Both the position numbers and the translations under genes were made by a program. A stretch of 13,026 nt of DNA from Patescibacteria group bacterium UBA4664 (GTDB taxonomy: Bacteria > Patescibacteriota > Saccharimonadia > CAILAD01 > BJGX01): the NCBI GenBank assembly GCA_943353705.1, contig CALRAY010000011.1, positions 1 through 13,026 on the forward strand, in the 5' to 3' direction. How positions within the stretch are numbered: position 1 is the stretch's first letter; each line of letters opens with the position of its first letter. Below the pieces are notes generated by a model. It was not told where the DNA came from, did no database searches, and worked only from the letters and a program-made list of their open reading frames with translations. Positions 4,789 to 10,428 of the stretch are shown piece by piece.

Positions 4789-5805
4789 TTATTTTTTTTC
4801 TAGCGTGTAAACGCCTTTATTGACGCGCTTAAATTGGGGTTTTTCTTGCAGATTAAGAACTATCGTAGTTGTTTTGACTTGCCTTCTGGCGAGTACTCTT
4901 TTTACAATTTCGTCCTTCGTAAGCGGTGCCGCTTCTTCTTTCAAGACTTCCTCTATGATATCAGCAACAGTTCCTGAGCGGTAGCCCCATTCCGCTAATG
5001 CATATATACCCCTGCCTATTAGAACAAATCTTTTATCCTTTATTAATTCATTGTGTACTGCTTGCGTTGTAACTCTCTTAGGGTTAGCTGCAAGTGTAGA
5101 TATCTTGCTTGCGATATCGGAAAAATGCAATGGCCGGCCAGTTCTTTTGAGCACTAAATATATCTTATCGCGGATACTTCGGGGGTTTACTTCTGGCCAC
5201 GTAGCTAATCCCCATAGTCCGTCAAGTTCACTTATAAGATTAGATGATTTAGCTAGCTCCCGAAGTGTTTCAATACTATGAGGTCCATCAATTAGTTTAT
5301 AGATATTATCAAATTTAGATGGCTTTGCTGTTCCTTTTATGATCTGGAGTAGATTATCGTGGAGAAGCTTTACTTTGTCTGAGTTAAACATGCTAGCATC
5401 AGCTACCATACTAGAATAGTGGTCATTCCTATCGATATAATCAAAATCAGGGTTAATCTTAATTAAGAAAACTGCATGTGGCTCAAGTTTCTTGTCGATG
5501 CTTATTTCATCGCTTAGGCTAGAAAGGCCGATTAGGCCACCCTTTTTAACTATAAATTCAGATGTTGCCGTAGAAAACTCATGCTTATTATTGGAGTTTT
5601 CTCGAAGCCTAGAAAGAGCCGCTTTTTCAATTTGCCTAACCCGCTCGCGGGTGATATTCAGGTCTTGGCCTATTTGTTCAAGAGTTTGGGGTTCGACATT
5701 TATGCCTCCACGCCTGCGAAGTACTTCCTTATCCCGGTCCTTTTTGAGTGTATCTAGGGCTGAGTCAACTAAATTATTGAGTTGTAATGTGGTGAGTTGC
5801 TTCAT
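4789..5805 (-). CDS. Sigma-70 region 4 fused to HARE-type winged helices, transcription regulator
   Basis: This is probably a promoter- or polymerase-associated regulator. Numbered from the ATG at 5805 (338 aa), residues about 28-69 match sigma-70 region 4, with a preceding KEVLRRRGGI and the helix-turn-helix TLEQIGQDLNITRERVRQIEKAALSRLR split over about 41-68. Regions 1-3 are absent, so it cannot act as a normal sigma factor. Residues about 209-275 (SIRDKIYLVLK, GRPLHFSDIA, GIYALAEWG) resemble the HARE-HTH winged helix of the RNA polymerase delta subunit; residues about 279-337 look like a second such domain ending GVYTLEKK. The middle is unassigned. An in-frame GTG at 5844 would add 13 residues but lies only about 7 nt from the predicted transcript start and within a palindrome, so I prefer the ATG, though no good Shine-Dalgarno precedes it. 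It heads a unit with the ATPase gene. Confidence 0.8.
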   Translation of the reverse strand: MKQLTTLQLNNLVDSALDTLKKDRDKEVLRRRGGINVEPQTLEQIGQDLNITRERVRQIEKAALSRLRENSNNKHEFSTATSEFIVKKGGLIGLSSLSDEISIDKKLEPHAVFLIKINPDFDYIDRNDHYSSMVADASMFNSDKVKLLHDNLLQIIKGTAKPSKFDNIYKLIDGPHSIETLRELAKSSNLISELDGLWGLATWPEVNPRSIRDKIYLVLKRTGRPLHFSDIASKISTLAANPKRVTTQAVHNELIKDKRFVLIGRGIYALAEWGYRSGTVADIIEEVLKEEAAPLTKDEIVKRVLARRQVKTTTIVLNLQEKPQFKRVNKGVYTLEKK

Positions 5806-5826
5806 ATAGTTATAATAATCTATAAA

Positions 5827-5843
5827 TGGCCTATTAAAGGCCA
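5827..5843. repeat. Perfect palindrome in the leader of the sigma-4/HARE gene
   Basis: TGGCCT and AGGCCA flank a 5-nt spacer, a perfect 6-5-6 inverted repeat just downstream of the predicted transcript start near 5851 and upstream of the ATG at 5805. It could be an operator for autoregulation by the encoded DNA-binding protein or a 5' mRNA hairpin. Confidence 0.45.
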
Positions 5844-5857
5844 CTTAAATCTTTATT

Positions 5858-5887: not shown

Positions 5888-8179
5888 TTATTTTTTTGTT
5901 TTCTTGCCCTTTTTGCTCTTCTCGGCTAGTATTTTTTTGCAGTCTTTCAGGGTTAATTCCTTAGGTTCAGTATCCTTAGGTATTTTGGCATTTACTGTGC
6001 CATCGGTGATATATGGTCCAAATCTACCATTTAGAACCTGAATACCTTCTTTCTCGAAATTAGATATTACCCTCTCATCGAGCATTTTCTGGTGTTCTGC
6101 GACTAGTTCATTAGCCCTCTTATCGGTAACGGTAAAGGGATCCTCTCCTTTTAGAGCTACATTTATGCTGCCAACTTTCATATATGGTCCGAATCTGCCA
6201 ATTTGAGCAATTATTTCAATGCCTGCTGGTGTTTTACCGACAATTCTGGGTAGTTCGAACATCTTTAAGGCTTCATCGAGCGTGACGTCGGATATTTTCT
6301 TACCTTCTGGCATTGGGGCAAATTTAGGCTTTTCTTCATCTTCTACCTCACCTATCTGTATCATTGCGCCGAAGCGACCTAGCCTAGCTATGACTGGTTT
6401 TTTGCTTTTTGGATCTTTTCCAAGTACTCGACTCTGGTTTGCTTCTCCCCTGCTTATTCCTTCAGATTCTTCGACAAGTTTGTGGAATGGTTTGTAAAAA
6501 TCACCAATCATCTTTTCCCATTCCTCTTTGCCTTTAGCGATTTCATCAAATTGCTTCTCTACTTTTGCAGTAAATTGATAGTCAAGGATATCCTTAAAGT
6601 ATTTTACTAAGAAATCTGTAACAATTGCACCTGTATCAGTTGGCACTAATCTGCTTCGATCGGTGTCATAGCGCTCCTCTTGTTCGGTTTTTGTCACTGA
6701 CCCACTATTTAGCTCAAGTAAAGTGATATTGCGCATTTTACCGTCTCCTTGTGATTTTTCTACATAGCCTCTGGCCTGTATGACAGAGATAGTTGGAGCA
6801 TAAGTACTTGGCCTGCCAATACCTTCGGCCTCGAGTTTTTTAACCAGTGAAGCTTCTGAATACCTGGCTGGTGGACGCGAAAAAGTTTCGGTCGCAGTTA
6901 TAGTTTGGGTTGCTAGACTATCGCCGTTTTTGAGATCAGGCAGAATATTGGGGTCGGCCTGTTTGGCTGATTGATAGGCTTTAAGGTAGCCCTCAAATAC
7001 TACTATTTCACCTTTAGCTAGGAACTCTCTACTTATGTCAGCCGCTTTAATGGATATTTCGGTTTTTTCTATTAAAGCCTCTGACATCTGAGATGCCATT
7101 GCTCTAGACCAGATCAATTTGTATAGCTTGGATTGCTTAGGGTCGCTGCCAGCCTCTCTGTTCTTGAAGTCAGTTGGTCTGATGGCTTCATGGGCTTCCT
7201 GGGCATTAGCCGACCTTGATTTGAAAAATCTCTCATTATAATACTTACTACCAAAGCTTGAAATAACCTCTTTCTTAATCTGGTCGAGTGCGGTTTTAGA
7301 GAGATTAAGTGAGTCAGTACGCATATAGCTTATGTGCCCGTCTTCATAGAGTCTTTGAGCCAAAACCATAGTTTGCTTTACTGAGTAGCCCAGTCGGCTC
7401 GATGCTGCTTGTTGCAAGGTAGAGGTTGTGAATGGCGGTGCCGGACTTTTTTTAGCGGGCTTTTGGGCGATTGCATCAACATTAAATTGCTTCGACTTAA
7501 TACTATTTAAAAATTCCTCTGCTTCTTTGGCAGTTTTGATTCTCTCTGATAATTCAGCTTTTATTTGATCGTTTTTATTCGTTTTAAATAGTGCAACTAC
7601 CTTATAGTCAGATTTTTGCTCAAACTTTTCAATCTCACGTTCTTTGTCGGCAATTAGCCTTACTGCAACAGACTGAACTCTGCCAGCACTTAGGCCTGTT
7701 TGGATTTTTTTCCAAAGCACAGGACTAAGTTCGTATCCAACAAGCCTATCAAGTATACGGCGGGCTTGTTGAGCATCAACTGTAGCTAGGTTAATAAGTC
7801 TAGGGTTCTTAATTGCCTCTTCGATAGCCGGCTTAGTTATTTCGTGGAATGTAATTCTTTTGGTTGTTTTGGGGTCTAGCTTTAAGACACTACAAAGATG
7901 CCAGCTAATTGCCTCACCTTCGCGGTCTTCATCGGTAGCCAGCCACACATCTTTGCCCTTAGCGGCTTTTTTGAGTGCATTTACAATCTTTGTTTTGTCT
8001 GGAGAAATTTCATAGGTTGGCGCAAATTTATTCTTCGTATCAATTCCAAGTCCGCCGCCTTTCTGGGGTAAGTCGCGAATATGACCCATACTGCTAAGTA
8101 CCTGAAAATCACTACCGAGATATTTCTCGATAGTTTTGGCTTTGGCAGGTGATTCTACTATTACTAAGTTTTTAGGCAT
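5888..8179 (-). CDS. topA: DNA topoisomerase I
   Basis: This type IA topoisomerase relaxes negative supercoils by passing one strand through a break made by a tyrosine. The 763-aa product opens with the Toprim domain: VESPAKAKTIEKYLG (8-22), SSMGHIRDLP (29-38), and the metal-binding DEDREGEA (83-90). The catalytic tyrosine is Tyr285 in HISYMRTDS, and LSAGRVQSVAVRLI (163-176) is the usual conserved helix. The C-terminus carries several RFG-type repeats (RLGRFGAMIQIG, QIGRFGPYMKVG, NGRFGPYITDG) of the topoisomerase C-terminal repeat family and a Lys-rich tail. It has no Cys4 zinc ribbons, unlike the E. coli enzyme but like several other lineages. The ATG at 8179 is the first residue of the conserved MPKNLVIVESP start. 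It has its own promoter just downstream of the structured RNA. Confidence 0.97.
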   Translation of the reverse strand: MPKNLVIVESPAKAKTIEKYLGSDFQVLSSMGHIRDLPQKGGGLGIDTKNKFAPTYEISPDKTKIVNALKKAAKGKDVWLATDEDREGEAISWHLCSVLKLDPKTTKRITFHEITKPAIEEAIKNPRLINLATVDAQQARRILDRLVGYELSPVLWKKIQTGLSAGRVQSVAVRLIADKEREIEKFEQKSDYKVVALFKTNKNDQIKAELSERIKTAKEAEEFLNSIKSKQFNVDAIAQKPAKKSPAPPFTTSTLQQAASSRLGYSVKQTMVLAQRLYEDGHISYMRTDSLNLSKTALDQIKKEVISSFGSKYYNERFFKSRSANAQEAHEAIRPTDFKNREAGSDPKQSKLYKLIWSRAMASQMSEALIEKTEISIKAADISREFLAKGEIVVFEGYLKAYQSAKQADPNILPDLKNGDSLATQTITATETFSRPPARYSEASLVKKLEAEGIGRPSTYAPTISVIQARGYVEKSQGDGKMRNITLLELNSGSVTKTEQEERYDTDRSRLVPTDTGAIVTDFLVKYFKDILDYQFTAKVEKQFDEIAKGKEEWEKMIGDFYKPFHKLVEESEGISRGEANQSRVLGKDPKSKKPVIARLGRFGAMIQIGEVEDEEKPKFAPMPEGKKISDVTLDEALKMFELPRIVGKTPAGIEIIAQIGRFGPYMKVGSINVALKGEDPFTVTDKRANELVAEHQKMLDERVISNFEKEGIQVLNGRFGPYITDGTVNAKIPKDTEPKELTLKDCKKILAEKSKKGKKTKK

Positions 8180-8246
8180 ATAAATTTTGTCTACTTGATT
8201 ATGCTAATGTTTAATTGTGATTTTTGCAAATAGGCATAGGGAAAAA

Positions 8247-8276
8247 ACTATATCTTACTAATATAAGCTTTGTCAA
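8247..8276 (-). promoter_or_regulatory. Promoter of topA
   Basis: On the - strand, TTGACA (8276-8271, perfect) and TATAGT (8252-8247, 5 of 6) are 18 bp apart. Initiation near 8240 gives a topA leader of about 60 nt. It begins only about 10 bp after the U-tract that ends the upstream RNA gene, so topA is insulated from it. Confidence 0.65.
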
Positions 8277-8286
8277 ATATGCCTGT

Positions 8287-8334
8287 AAAAGAGTTCGGGC
8301 CCCGGCGAGTGCACTATGTGCATCACCGGGGCCC
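8287..8334 (-). terminator. Intrinsic terminator of the structured RNA
   Basis: Arms at 8326-8334 and 8297-8305 pair as 9 G-C base pairs, extended by three more pairs including a G-U and an upper GCAC/GTGC stem with a 3-nt loop. The - strand continues with GAACTC and then four Us (8290-8287). The stem stacks directly on the closing helix of the RNA at 8335. Confidence 0.75.
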
Positions 8335-8634
8335 AAGTTCCTTATGTAAGAGCTATCGTCGCCAACGATAGTAGCTTTAAGGCGGCCAGCCCTACACATC
8401 AAGCGACACGGAAAGGACGAACACAATCCAAGCCACAACCGTCTTCCCACTATTTGCTTGTCTCATCTGGAGACTAAATAGGTGCTCAGGGGTCTGCATT
8501 GACGCGTAAATTAGAATGCTGGCGGGATACCATATGTCACTAATAGTTAGTAGCACATTTAACCGCGTTCGGCTGGTACCCCTTAAGGTAAGGAGTTAAC
8601 CATAGCCTGCACCTAATTATATAAGGAACTTACG
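8287..8634 (-). ncRNA. Large structured RNA of unknown class
   Basis: A promoter at 8641-8669 and an intrinsic terminator at 8287-8334 bound a transcript whose mature body is about 300 nt. The ends close in a perfect 11-bp helix (8621-8631 with 8335-8345). Inside I can pair 8609-8618 with 8476-8485; hairpins 8590-8596/8578-8584, 8470-8474/8460-8464 and 8365-8371/8353-8359; 8557-8568 with 8502-8511 (10 bp, 2-nt bulge); and 8440-8447 with 8410-8419 (8 bp, 2-nt bulge). AATGC (8515-8519) and GCATT (8496-8500) would make a pseudoknot. Several pairs are G-U only when read on the - strand (for example in 8578-8596 and the terminator), which fixes the strand. tmRNA is unlikely (no TTCGA T-loop, no CCA-type acceptor) and so is RNase P RNA (no GAAAGUC or ACAGAA core). 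The reading frame through 8450-8211 has no coding support. Confidence 0.65.
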
Positions 8635-8640
8635 GGCAAT

Positions 8641-8669
8641 ATTATAATATATTAATCTTTAAATTACAA
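8641..8669 (-). promoter_or_regulatory. Promoter of the structured RNA
   Basis: On the - strand, TTGTAA (8669-8664, 4 of 6) and a perfect TATAAT (8646-8641) are 17 bp apart. Initiation near 8634-8633 coincides with the 5' edge of the closing helix, which supports both calls. Its -35 is about 20 bp from the -35 of the divergent + strand promoter. Confidence 0.65.
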
Positions 8670-8689: not shown

Positions 8690-8717
8690 TTGACAAAGTT
8701 ATTAAATAGTATAAAAT
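8690..8717 (+). promoter_or_regulatory. Promoter of the alpha-CTD-like gene
   Basis: A perfect TTGACA (8690-8695) and TAAAAT (8712-8717, 5 of 6) are 16 bp apart, with initiation near 8724. This is one of the best promoters in the window and rules out the in-frame TTG at 8690 as a start codon, since that TTG is part of the -35 box. Confidence 0.7.
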
Positions 8718-8761
8718 ATCCTTTTAGTACCACTATTCGCCTCGGCGAGAAAAGAGATAAA

Positions 8762-9199
8762 ATGCCTCTATCATTGGCAATAACAGATAGAATCAGAGAG
8801 AACATCGAAGAAGCGCTAGAACAGCGCTACATCGATGGCTTCAATAAGGGTCATGAAGTTGGCTATAAGGCTGGTTTCGATGAGGTGCTTAAAGAACTCG
8901 AGGCTCATCTTGATCCGATGACTCCCTCAAGCCCCGCTCGCATTATGGGGGCTGACGAGTTTGAAATCATCGAGGGTCCATTCGTGCCAAAGCCACGGAA
9001 AACCCGTCTCGTGTCTGTAAAAGCCCTCGGGCTATCAAGCAAGACACAAAACGCTCTTACTAATGCTGGAATCACCAAGGTCAAGCAACTGACAGAGATT
9101 TCGGCTACCGAGCTTCGCAAACTTCCTCGTATTGGCAATGTGGCTATTAATGAGGTAGTCGGAGCACTTAAGAAGCACGGACGGTCTCTAAGGGCCTAG
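8762..9199 (+). CDS. Stand-alone RNA polymerase alpha-CTD-like protein
   Basis: This 145-aa protein may act as a free alpha C-terminal domain that touches promoter DNA or regulators; its role is not established. Residues about 83-143 match the alpha-CTD fold: VSVKALGLSSKTQNALTNAG, a helix ITKVKQLTEISATEL, and a helix-hairpin-helix LRKLPRIGNVAINEVVGALKK (119-138), ending HGRSL, very like the LKTPNLGKKSLTEI and RGLSL of alpha. There is no alpha N-terminal assembly domain. Residues 8-50 are a charged helix with a GFNKGHEVGYKAGF segment, possibly a coiled coil for dimerisation, then a Pro-rich linker (52-80). The ATG at 8762 follows a purine-rich GAGAAAAGAG and a clear promoter. It is monocistronic, ending in a strong terminator. 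Other helix-hairpin-helix DNA-binding proteins are the alternative, but the alpha-CTD match is good. Confidence 0.8.
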   Translation: MPLSLAITDRIRENIEEALEQRYIDGFNKGHEVGYKAGFDEVLKELEAHLDPMTPSSPARIMGADEFEIIEGPFVPKPRKTRLVSVKALGLSSKTQNALTNAGITKVKQLTEISATELRKLPRIGNVAINEVVGALKKHGRSLRA

Positions 9200-9258: not shown

Positions 9259-10110
9259 TTAATTCAATATCCAACTTCCTGCACCAAGATTGCGAATTTT
9301 GCCAGTAATTTCCATAAGGCTTATTATGCTTGCAATACTAACTGCATCAATCTTCGTTTCGTCTATGATTTGCTGGGTCGTAAGTGATTTTTCAGACAGT
9401 AAGCCCATTACTAAGGCTTCTTCTTTGCTATCAGCCTTAGGCTTAACCTTGACGAGCTGGGGGCTTTGCATACCCAAGAAAGCTAATACATCGCTCGCAC
9501 CAGTTATCAGTTGCGCTCCATTTTTAATCAAATTATTTGGCCCTGCCGATCTTAAGCTAGTAATATTACCGGGCACTGCCATGACTGTTCTATTTGCCTG
9601 AATGGCAAAATTAGCAGTAATCAGGCTTCCTGATTTAGCATCGGCTTCGGTTACTATTGTGGCTAGGCTAATCCCGGCAATAATTCTATTGCGTGCTGGA
9701 AAATTAGACCTGTAAGCTTCAGTTCCATTGGCGTATTCGCTGATAACTCCACCACCAGAATCGACAATACTATTAAATAGTCCATGATTGCTTCTAGGAT
9801 AAGGTCTGTCTAGCCCACAACCTAAAACTGCTAAGGTTGCACCCTTGGCGTCTAATACGGCCTTGTGGGCGATAGTATCAATTCCTAGAGCCATACCGCT
9901 AACTATGCAAAAGCCTGAGCTGGCAAGCTCGTAGGCGAGTCTATAGGTTACCTCTTCCCCGTATTTGGTGGGCTTGCGAGTGCCAACAATCGAAACCATT
10001 GGTAGATTAGGAATAGCTCCAGAAAGATAGAGACCTTTGGGTGGGCTAGCTATGTCTCGCAAAATATGCGGAAAACTATTGTCATTATGTGAAATATATT
10101 GTATATTCAT
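9259..10110 (-). CDS. dprA: DprA, DNA-processing protein / RecA loader
   Basis: DprA binds incoming single-stranded DNA during natural transformation and loads RecA. The 283-aa protein has the Rossmann-like core motifs in order: VSIVGTRKPTKYG (39-51), VSGMALGIDTIAHKAVL (70-86), AVLGCGLDRPYP (94-105), FPARNRIIAGIS (137-148), SGSLITANFA (160-169) and VPGN (179-182) with LIKNGAQLI (194-202). A C-terminal winged-helix segment follows (about 228-283, LLSEKSLTTQQIIDETKID). There is no N-terminal SAM-like domain, so it is short compared with longer DprA proteins, while the core is complete. The ATG at 10110 begins right before the core. dprA and topA are neighbours in many bacteria; here they keep the same strand but are separated by the alpha-CTD-like gene and the structured RNA. 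I could not find a convincing promoter for it. Confidence 0.96.
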   Translation of the reverse strand: MNIQYISHNDNSFPHILRDIASPPKGLYLSGAIPNLPMVSIVGTRKPTKYGEEVTYRLAYELASSGFCIVSGMALGIDTIAHKAVLDAKGATLAVLGCGLDRPYPRSNHGLFNSIVDSGGGVISEYANGTEAYRSNFPARNRIIAGISLATIVTEADAKSGSLITANFAIQANRTVMAVPGNITSLRSAGPNNLIKNGAQLITGASDVLAFLGMQSPQLVKVKPKADSKEEALVMGLLSEKSLTTQQIIDETKIDAVSIASIISLMEITGKIRNLGAGSWILN

Positions 10111-10166: not shown

Positions 10167-10195
10167 TTGACAATATACTGCTTATGTGATAACAT
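10167..10195 (+). promoter_or_regulatory. Promoter of the long-hairpin RNA
   Basis: A perfect TTGACA (10167-10172), a 17-bp spacer and TAACAT (10190-10195, 4 of 6) with an upstream TG giving the extended -10 form TGnTAnnnT. Initiation is expected near 10202. There is no coding sequence downstream on this strand. Confidence 0.6.
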
Positions 10196-10238
10196 ACTAA
10201 CCGTTCTTTAAATAAGCACATATTTACATGTTTTTTTC

Positions 10239-10314
10239 AAGGGAGTAATCTGCTCCGCGAGGCTTAATCTAAGACTCACCCTCCTTTTAGATCTCGCGAG
10301 CAGATTACTCCCTT
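10239..10314 (+). repeat. Near-perfect long inverted repeat
   Basis: Arms 10239-10261 and 10293-10314 are complementary over 22 bp, differing by one extra C in the left arm, with 31 nt between them. It could also be read as a relic of a small inverted-repeat element, but I see no target duplication at its edges and its position between a promoter and a terminator favours an RNA hairpin. Confidence 0.85.
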
Positions 10315-10385
10315 TAATGCCACGGCCTTATTATTACTATTGATGGTCGCACAAATCCCTCTATGGGGGCTTTAAAGGGAATAAT

Positions 10386-10428
10386 AAACAGATCAGTTCG
10401 AGTTTATACGGCTGGTCTGTTTTTATTT
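10386..10428 (+). terminator. Intrinsic terminator of the long-hairpin RNA
   Basis: AAACAGATCAG (10386-10396) pairs with CTGGTCTGTTT (10412-10422) over 11 bp with one G-U that fits only the + strand, a 15-nt loop, and a T-rich tail to 10428. On the - strand it has a weaker tail (TTTATTATT) and could partly stop transcription leaving pth. Confidence 0.8.

Follow-up and report, generated by a model that had tools for sequence, protein, structure and literature searches.

The spacer upstream of topA in this Candidatus Saccharibacteria genome is best explained by a stand-alone gene for a non-coding RNA, whose family is not in Rfam and which has so far been seen only in part of one Saccharibacteria family; we put the probability of this reading at about 0.7. 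The gene is recognized by a promoter of conserved spacing, a fixed position after dprA, compensatory changes in its helices and the lack of any Rfam match. It is very likely that a stand-alone structured RNA gene is present, a confidence that was slightly lowered in view of the displaced T run behind the terminator stem. As far as our models see, this is probably a real RNA, new to Rfam and restricted to one lineage. A sequence-only reading of the same DNA had suggested an RNA specific to a lineage of CPR bacteria, and this fits, as every copy found lies in a single Saccharibacteria family.

Genomic context and parts of the predicted gene

The window, i.e., the whole stretch of 13,026 nucleotides that was analyzed, is contig 11 of an assembly of 398,658 bases that is 69% complete. 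On its minus strand lie dprA (9259-10110) and a gene at 5888-8179 that we take to be topA from reading its sequence. The RNA gene is located between topA and a plus-strand gene at 8690-9199. The latter, which is divergent from the RNA gene, codes for a small protein in which an RNA polymerase alpha-CTD domain stands alone (PF03118, E 3.2e-10); among the 13 family genomes compared, a relative of it adjoins the RNA only in genome G005. In both G000, the genome of the window, and G005, this opposite-strand gene separates dprA from the RNA. Read along the minus strand from 8637 to 8287, the predicted gene of about 350 nt consists of a promoter, a multi-domain fold closed by helix P1 and a terminator-like hairpin, with the following parts:

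8641..8669 (-): promoter TTGTAA-17-TATAAT; the same spacing is best in 6 of 7 homologs and tied in the seventh
8287..8637 (-): entire predicted ncRNA gene with its terminator-like hairpin, about 350 nt; 69.1% identity to G005 over 330 aligned positions
8620..8631 (-): 5' strand of closing helix P1; in the window, 11 of its 12 columns are paired
8605..8618 (-): P2 5' strand; both-sided change in 13 of 14 pairs
8584..8604 (-): P3 hairpin; its pyrimidine-rich loop, UUAACUCCUUA, is at 8599-8589; weakest helix, 78% of cells paired; CCUU in the loop in 6 of 7
8574..8582 (-): P4 5' strand, ending in ACCA; 88.7% of cells paired, both-sided change in 4 of 9 pairs
8562..8573 (-): P5 hairpin GCC..GGU; all cells paired, 3 of 4 pairs invariant
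8534..8558 (-): P6 hairpin, length varying among genera; both-sided change in 4 of 4 basal pairs
8524..8532 (-): P4 3' strand, starting with UGGU; from the covariation alignment of the 5' domain
8509..8523 (-): P2 3' strand; from the covariation alignment of the 5' domain
8499..8507 (-): P7 5' strand; both-sided change in 8 of 11 pairs
8450..8481 (-): P8a hairpin; both-sided change in 5 of 7 pairs
8407..8443 (-): P8b helix around hairpin P8c (8429-8415); both-sided change in 1 of 5 and 4 of 5 pairs (helices 3 and 4 of the 3' domain)
8394..8402 (-): P7 3' strand; from the covariation alignment of the 3' domain
8372..8391 (-): H-type pseudoknot PK9; both-sided change in 4 of 4 stem-2 pairs; not recognized in G006
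8391-8389 with 8383-8381 (-): PK9 stem 1, GGC/GCC
8388-8385 with 8375-8372 (-): PK9 stem 2, UGGC/GCUA
8347..8371 (-): variable hairpin region P10 (window: CUAUCGUUGGCGACGAUAG); left out of the covariation counts
8335..8346 (-): P1 3' strand, adjoining the terminator-like hairpin; from P1 column pairing across homologs
8287..8334 (-): terminator-like hairpin GGGCCCCGG..CCGGGGCCC, then GAACUCUUUU; unflagged by the generic scan
8247..8276 (-): separate topA promoter TTGACA-18-TATAGT, 3' of the hairpin and outside the RNA

The minus-strand promoter announced by the sequence-only reading is indeed present as a sigma-70 type TTGTAA-17-TATAAT at 8669-8641, upstream of the RNA, and its spacing is kept among the homologs. 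The best promoter is TTGNNA-17-TATAAT in six of seven (window's copy counted), the exception being G006, where TTGCAA-17-TATTAT ties with an 18-nt spacing. Equally, the ends of the RNA had been said to pair perfectly over 11 bp; closing helix P1 does form 11 perfect pairs in the window (AAGUUCCUUAU/AUAAGGAACUU), and 10 to 12 of its 12 columns are paired in each of the seven homologs. The transcript had been put at about 300 nt. Positions 8335-8634 correspond to the P1-closed part, while the whole gene (8637-8287) is nearer to 350 nt. As for the claimed terminator, a GC-rich hairpin begins 0 to 2 nt past the last P1 pair in all seven homologs; that of the window (8334-8297) has 17 pairs and a single bulge and is followed by GAACUCUUUU. 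However, the window's T run is displaced, starting several bases beyond the hairpin stem, and a generic terminator scan of the window did not flag the hairpin at 8334-8297; for both reasons we call it terminator-like rather than a textbook terminator.

Conserved secondary structure

Single-sequence folding is weak evidence here, being only modestly better than that of shuffled sequences on the minus strand (z -2.14, with 2 of 200 shuffles equally good). On the plus strand it gave z -3.44, with 0 of 200 shuffles equally good, and taken alone it favors the plus strand. Comparison across homologs favors the minus strand for the RNA, since the paired columns contain 35 G-U cells, which pair on the minus strand only, versus 8 A-C cells, which would pair on the plus strand only; this is in line with an earlier claim that the G-U pairs hold on just this strand. 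The two-sequence consensus energy was -100.2 for the minus and -75.2 for the plus strand.

According to the hand alignment, the architecture comprises P1, a 5' domain in which P2 encloses P3 and P4 (the latter enclosing P5 and P6), a 3' domain in which P7 encloses P8a and P8b (the latter enclosing P8c), a pseudoknot and P10. Alignment of relatives with a test for covariation had been proposed as a check, and 23 of the 39 pairs in the 5' domain and 23 of the 36 in the 3' domain were found to have changed on both sides, counts that are inflated because the alignments were hand-made to fit the structure and that come from seven sequences at most, four of them from one genus, g3. In the 5' domain (seven sequences, 249 cells), 90.8% of the cells are paired; none of 500 shuffles equaled the alignment on any of five measures, and sliding it left 27.4 to 46.4% paired. 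The 3'-domain alignment holds six sequences and 200 cells, G006 having been left out as its 3' half was not alignable, and replaces a MAFFT alignment that was set aside after a P7 strand had been moved. Here 95.5% of the cells are paired, 0 of 500 shuffles scored as high and slid versions reached 37.1 to 51.4%. Stem 2 of the pseudoknot reads UGGC/GCUA in G000 and GUCA/UGAC in g3, with one unpaired cell (G005). The P4/P5 junction, ACCA-GCC..GGU..UGGU, is nearly invariant. Pairwise identity among the homologs ranges from 39.9 to 91.8%; the fold was kept across genera while the sequence changed (identity down to 40%).

Distribution and inheritance

Homologs were found in seven of the 13 family genomes, belonging to four genera and each located 3' of dprA on the same strand. 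The carriers are G000, G005, G006 (genus g7) and the four g3 genomes G002, G012, G008 and G011. The sequence-only reading had proposed to collect the dprA-topA region of related genomes, and the element is conserved there at the same place. A DNA search of 61 genomes returned one clear relative, in G005 (same family, another genus; E 1.6e-24), where the gene order around the RNA is that of the window; the next best match covered 27 bases (E 0.002). ORFs 5' of topA were tabulated in 28 loci and eight spacers were inspected, and RNA-like spacers after dprA were observed in G002, G012, G008, G011 and G006. Against these eight spacers, the matches of a two-sequence profile in G008 (E 3.4e-5) and G002 (0.003) fell at the first bases expected; in G012 there were only weak ones (0.067 and 0.23), and in G011 and G006 none. 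Copies without a clear profile match were recognized by eye from the promoter, P1, the AGCC..GGU hairpin and the terminator-like hairpin.

Covariance models were built for the 5' domain (R1) and the 3' domain (R2), and each matched six genomes out of the 392 of the class, every one of them a family member. R1 did not report G012 in this search, but this copy was found directly (E 3.6e-5); G006 is absent from the R2 matches. Among 379 phylum genomes, R1 returned at E<=0.01 the window's own copy only. In the 392 class genomes the matches of both models were training sequences, with no new copy and none outside the family, limits that are those of the models, as searches of more than 40 genomes used strict filters and more diverged copies may be missed. 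A further model, R3, found nothing at E<=2 in G001, G003, G004, G007, G009 and G010. R3, which was trained without G006, missed this genome under default filters; with the filters off, it ranked the syntenic place first in the 5,277-base locus, over the full model but with a marginal score (16.1 bits, E 0.012). R2, which had no G006 sequence in its training, did not recover G006 (best overlap 2.1 bits, rank 9 of 19), and because of this failure the 3' half of the G006 copy appears to be either lost or unrecognizable. Since six of the 13 genomes lack a detectable copy, the family can apparently do without the RNA.

Several matches outside the syntenic loci were examined and set aside. In plasmid and phage collections, the RNA had no counterpart at E<=1e-3. 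The pattern GGGAAGACGGTNGTGGCT fetched 58 loci from genome_contigs and two from viral_contigs. Against these and the other loci collected, the two-sequence profile matched at full length only in loci of G000 and G005. Locus L125 (Aquificaceae; 15.8 bits, E 0.0012) passed the inclusion line and was discounted, the match being centered on the fetching pattern. The five pattern loci inspected out of the 60 (L074, L075, L100, L123 and L124) appeared by eye to be protein-coding, with the pattern spelling GKTVVA. In L021, a relative's locus containing CCCCTGAGCACCT (E 0.041), nothing further in common was seen around it.

With respect to inheritance, the five carriers with a long enough DprA sequence form one clade in the DprA tree (99/97), apart from three non-carriers. 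The carriers are not united in the TopA tree, and two changes are needed there, because g3 falls outside the other family members. TopA of all four g3 genomes is placed among the outgroups with weak support, unlike DprA of G002 and G012, which groups with the family; TopA of g3 thus looks as if it had been replaced or were fast-evolving. We prefer a reading in which the RNA was gained a single time and then inherited vertically without changing its place; the TopA tree speaks against this.

A second likely non-coding RNA was observed elsewhere in the window, between pth and dprA (10238-10428, plus strand), with a TTGACA located by eye at 10167. It consists of a long hairpin (about 29 pairs, interrupted by small bulges), followed by a terminator-like hairpin, and its fold is far better than expected (z -8.89, 0 of 200 shuffles). 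This RNA is better conserved than the dprA-topA RNA (identity to G005 is 90.4% in 363 nt, that to G001 79.0% in 195 nt), its loop region CUCACCCUCCUUUUAGA does not differ among G000, G005 and G001, and G001 carries it while the first RNA was not found there. Against Rfam it gave no match at gathering threshold and, at E<=5, five weak ones, all to microRNA or snoRNA families; the exact loop pattern was not found in viral_contigs. In addition, a minus-strand gene at 4789-5844 encodes a protein with a sigma-70 region 4 and a HARE-HTH domain.

Possible role and alternative explanations

The anatomy and evolution of the gene point to a stable RNA that would be transcribed from its own promoter, independently of topA, and would work in trans. 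Most likely it would be bound by protein, although we advance a trans-acting, protein-bound mechanism only tentatively. Its functional face would be the nearly invariant P4/P5 junction together with the pseudoknot, while P6 and P10 would tolerate change. Transcription itself is an inference. It is conceivable, at somewhat less than even odds, that we are dealing with a new class of RNA, about 350 nt long, whose origin lies in one branch of Saccharibacteria and which forms the RNA core of a putative ribonucleoprotein.

An antisense RNA, also acting in trans, whose pyrimidine-rich P3 loop would pair with Shine-Dalgarno or other purine-rich sites of mRNAs, is unlikely, yet it is the alternative that survives best. 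The loop contains CUCCUU in G000 and G005, CCUUUC in g3 and CCUU in six of seven homologs, and its exact stretch in common with ACCUCCUU amounts to six letters in G000 and seven in G005. However, the other five homologs have only three or four letters in common, so that the resemblance to an anti-Shine-Dalgarno sequence is good in two of seven. Furthermore, GGAG, AGGA or GAGG occurs within 25 bases of only one of eight gene starts inspected in the window (starts hand-chosen), and antisense action would leave most of the conserved 300-nt fold unexplained. Pairing of the P3 loop elsewhere within the RNA was also considered: six sequences would, by eye, allow a CCUU/AGGG pairing, which is invariant, and no consistent covarying partner was found.

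The location of the RNA just 5' of topA, on the same strand and ending in a terminator-like hairpin, could suggest a cis-acting leader or riboswitch of topA with this hairpin as expression platform. Nevertheless, topA has its own promoter past the hairpin (TTGACA-18-TATAGT, 8276-8247, minus strand), and a similar topA promoter and leader can be seen by eye in G003 and G009, genomes where the RNA was not found. Moreover, an ORF separates the RNA from topA in G008 (180 aa) and G011 (177 aa). In all seven homologs, P1 and the hairpin stem are neighbors, 0 to 2 nt apart and without overlap, so no competing fold is evident. Judged from sequence, then, neither a transcript contiguous with topA nor a fold competing with the terminator was found, and a topA leader is quite improbable. 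The 5' leader of topA itself (8180-8246, minus strand; TTTGCA .. AAACATTAGCATAATCAA) is alike in the family loci inspected, including G003 and G009, and is possibly regulatory.

Comparison with known RNA families

A cmscan search, the first check that had been proposed, gave no match to any Rfam family in the window at gathering threshold. In a relaxed search at E<=10 over 581 bases, only mir-1278 (E 1.2) and nos_TCE (E 2.8) appeared, both unrelated and far below their gathering scores, and the six homologous loci (29,591 bases) gave no Rfam match at E<=5. A strongly diverged copy of tmRNA, RNase P RNA, 6S RNA or SRP RNA is highly improbable, given the lack of an Rfam match at these thresholds in the window and the six homologous loci. 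The size of the RNA does resemble that of tmRNA or RNase P RNA; indeed, RNase P RNA is also about 350 nt long, P1-closed and multi-domain, and tmRNA is of similar length and has pseudoknots. The cores of both had been reported missing, which agrees with the lack of any RF00010, RF00023 or ARAGORN match in the region and of any tmRNA found by ARAGORN in the window. Separate copies also exist elsewhere. RNase P RNA is present over cut-off in 13 of 13 genomes examined, a set that includes five carriers but not G011 and G012, the copy of the window's genome being at C6:10105-10516. Similarly, tmRNA is over cut-off in 16 of 17 genomes, a set from outside which come G011 and G012; the 16 include the carriers G002, G005, G006 and G008, while none was found over cut-off in the window's own assembly, which is 69% complete. 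G005, G007 and G014 each have two tmRNA matches over cut-off, and G010, a large genome (2.2 Mb, 630 contigs) that is possibly mixed, has four.

For 6S RNA, a single long hairpin with a central bubble, no RF00013 match was found in the region, and the supported fold is multi-branched. At E<=0.001, 6S RNA was detected in four of 13 family genomes, two of them over cut-off, and in one of seven carriers: G006 has a separate match (E 2e-8) just under the cut-off (45.1 bits versus a gathering score of 46.4). The SRP models of Rfam matched neither the window nor the six homologous loci. RF00169 found SRP RNA in none of the 13 family genomes, while 11 of 14 control genomes matched; the family may have an SRP RNA of a different type, or a diverged one. 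As judged by the Rfam tests, tmRNA, RNase P RNA and 6S RNA are excluded, and presence in seven of 13 family genomes does not suit a universal RNA. Finally, chance folding of a GC-rich spacer with no functional RNA, for which the modest minus-strand energy and the better plus-strand one could be cited, is implausible to the point of dismissal, given covariation far beyond the shuffled and slid controls and the separate evidence of a conserved promoter and position.

Reduced genomes keep few dispensable genes. If the stand-alone RNA gene is real, its maintenance in a much reduced genome would imply a real benefit. We know of no cultivated carrier. A covarying RNA that, after an apparently single gain, has stayed at its place in four genera would offer a defined target for probing and pull-down, and genetic tools are described for cultivated Saccharibacteria (PMC10633639).

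The RNA is predicted to belong with the large orphan structured non-coding RNAs, being longer than 200 nt, with a covarying multi-helix structure, its own promoter and no known family. OLE, ROOL and GOLLD are large orphan structured bacterial RNAs that probably act in trans; they are usually longer and have other folds, and the present RNA has no Rfam match. Among the literature matches listed, which left preprints and most subscription papers outside their scope, no title concerns the present RNA, and the main texts, as distinct from the complete publications, of PMC11109978 and PMC8632094 do not mention Saccharibacteria, TM7, topA or candidate phyla. The former regards large structured RNAs that lack a family as rare among bacteria (PMC11109978). 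The same text describes the Soda Lake RNA (smtA motif, HRC-65-1), an RNA of more than 350 nt found in Thioalkalivibrio upstream of smtA, which its authors judged too long for a riboswitch (PMC11109978). Compared by description and not by homology, the two RNAs differ in host and in the gene that follows, but they are alike in being large, in having a complex covarying structure, in their restriction to one lineage and in a function yet to be determined (PMC11109978).
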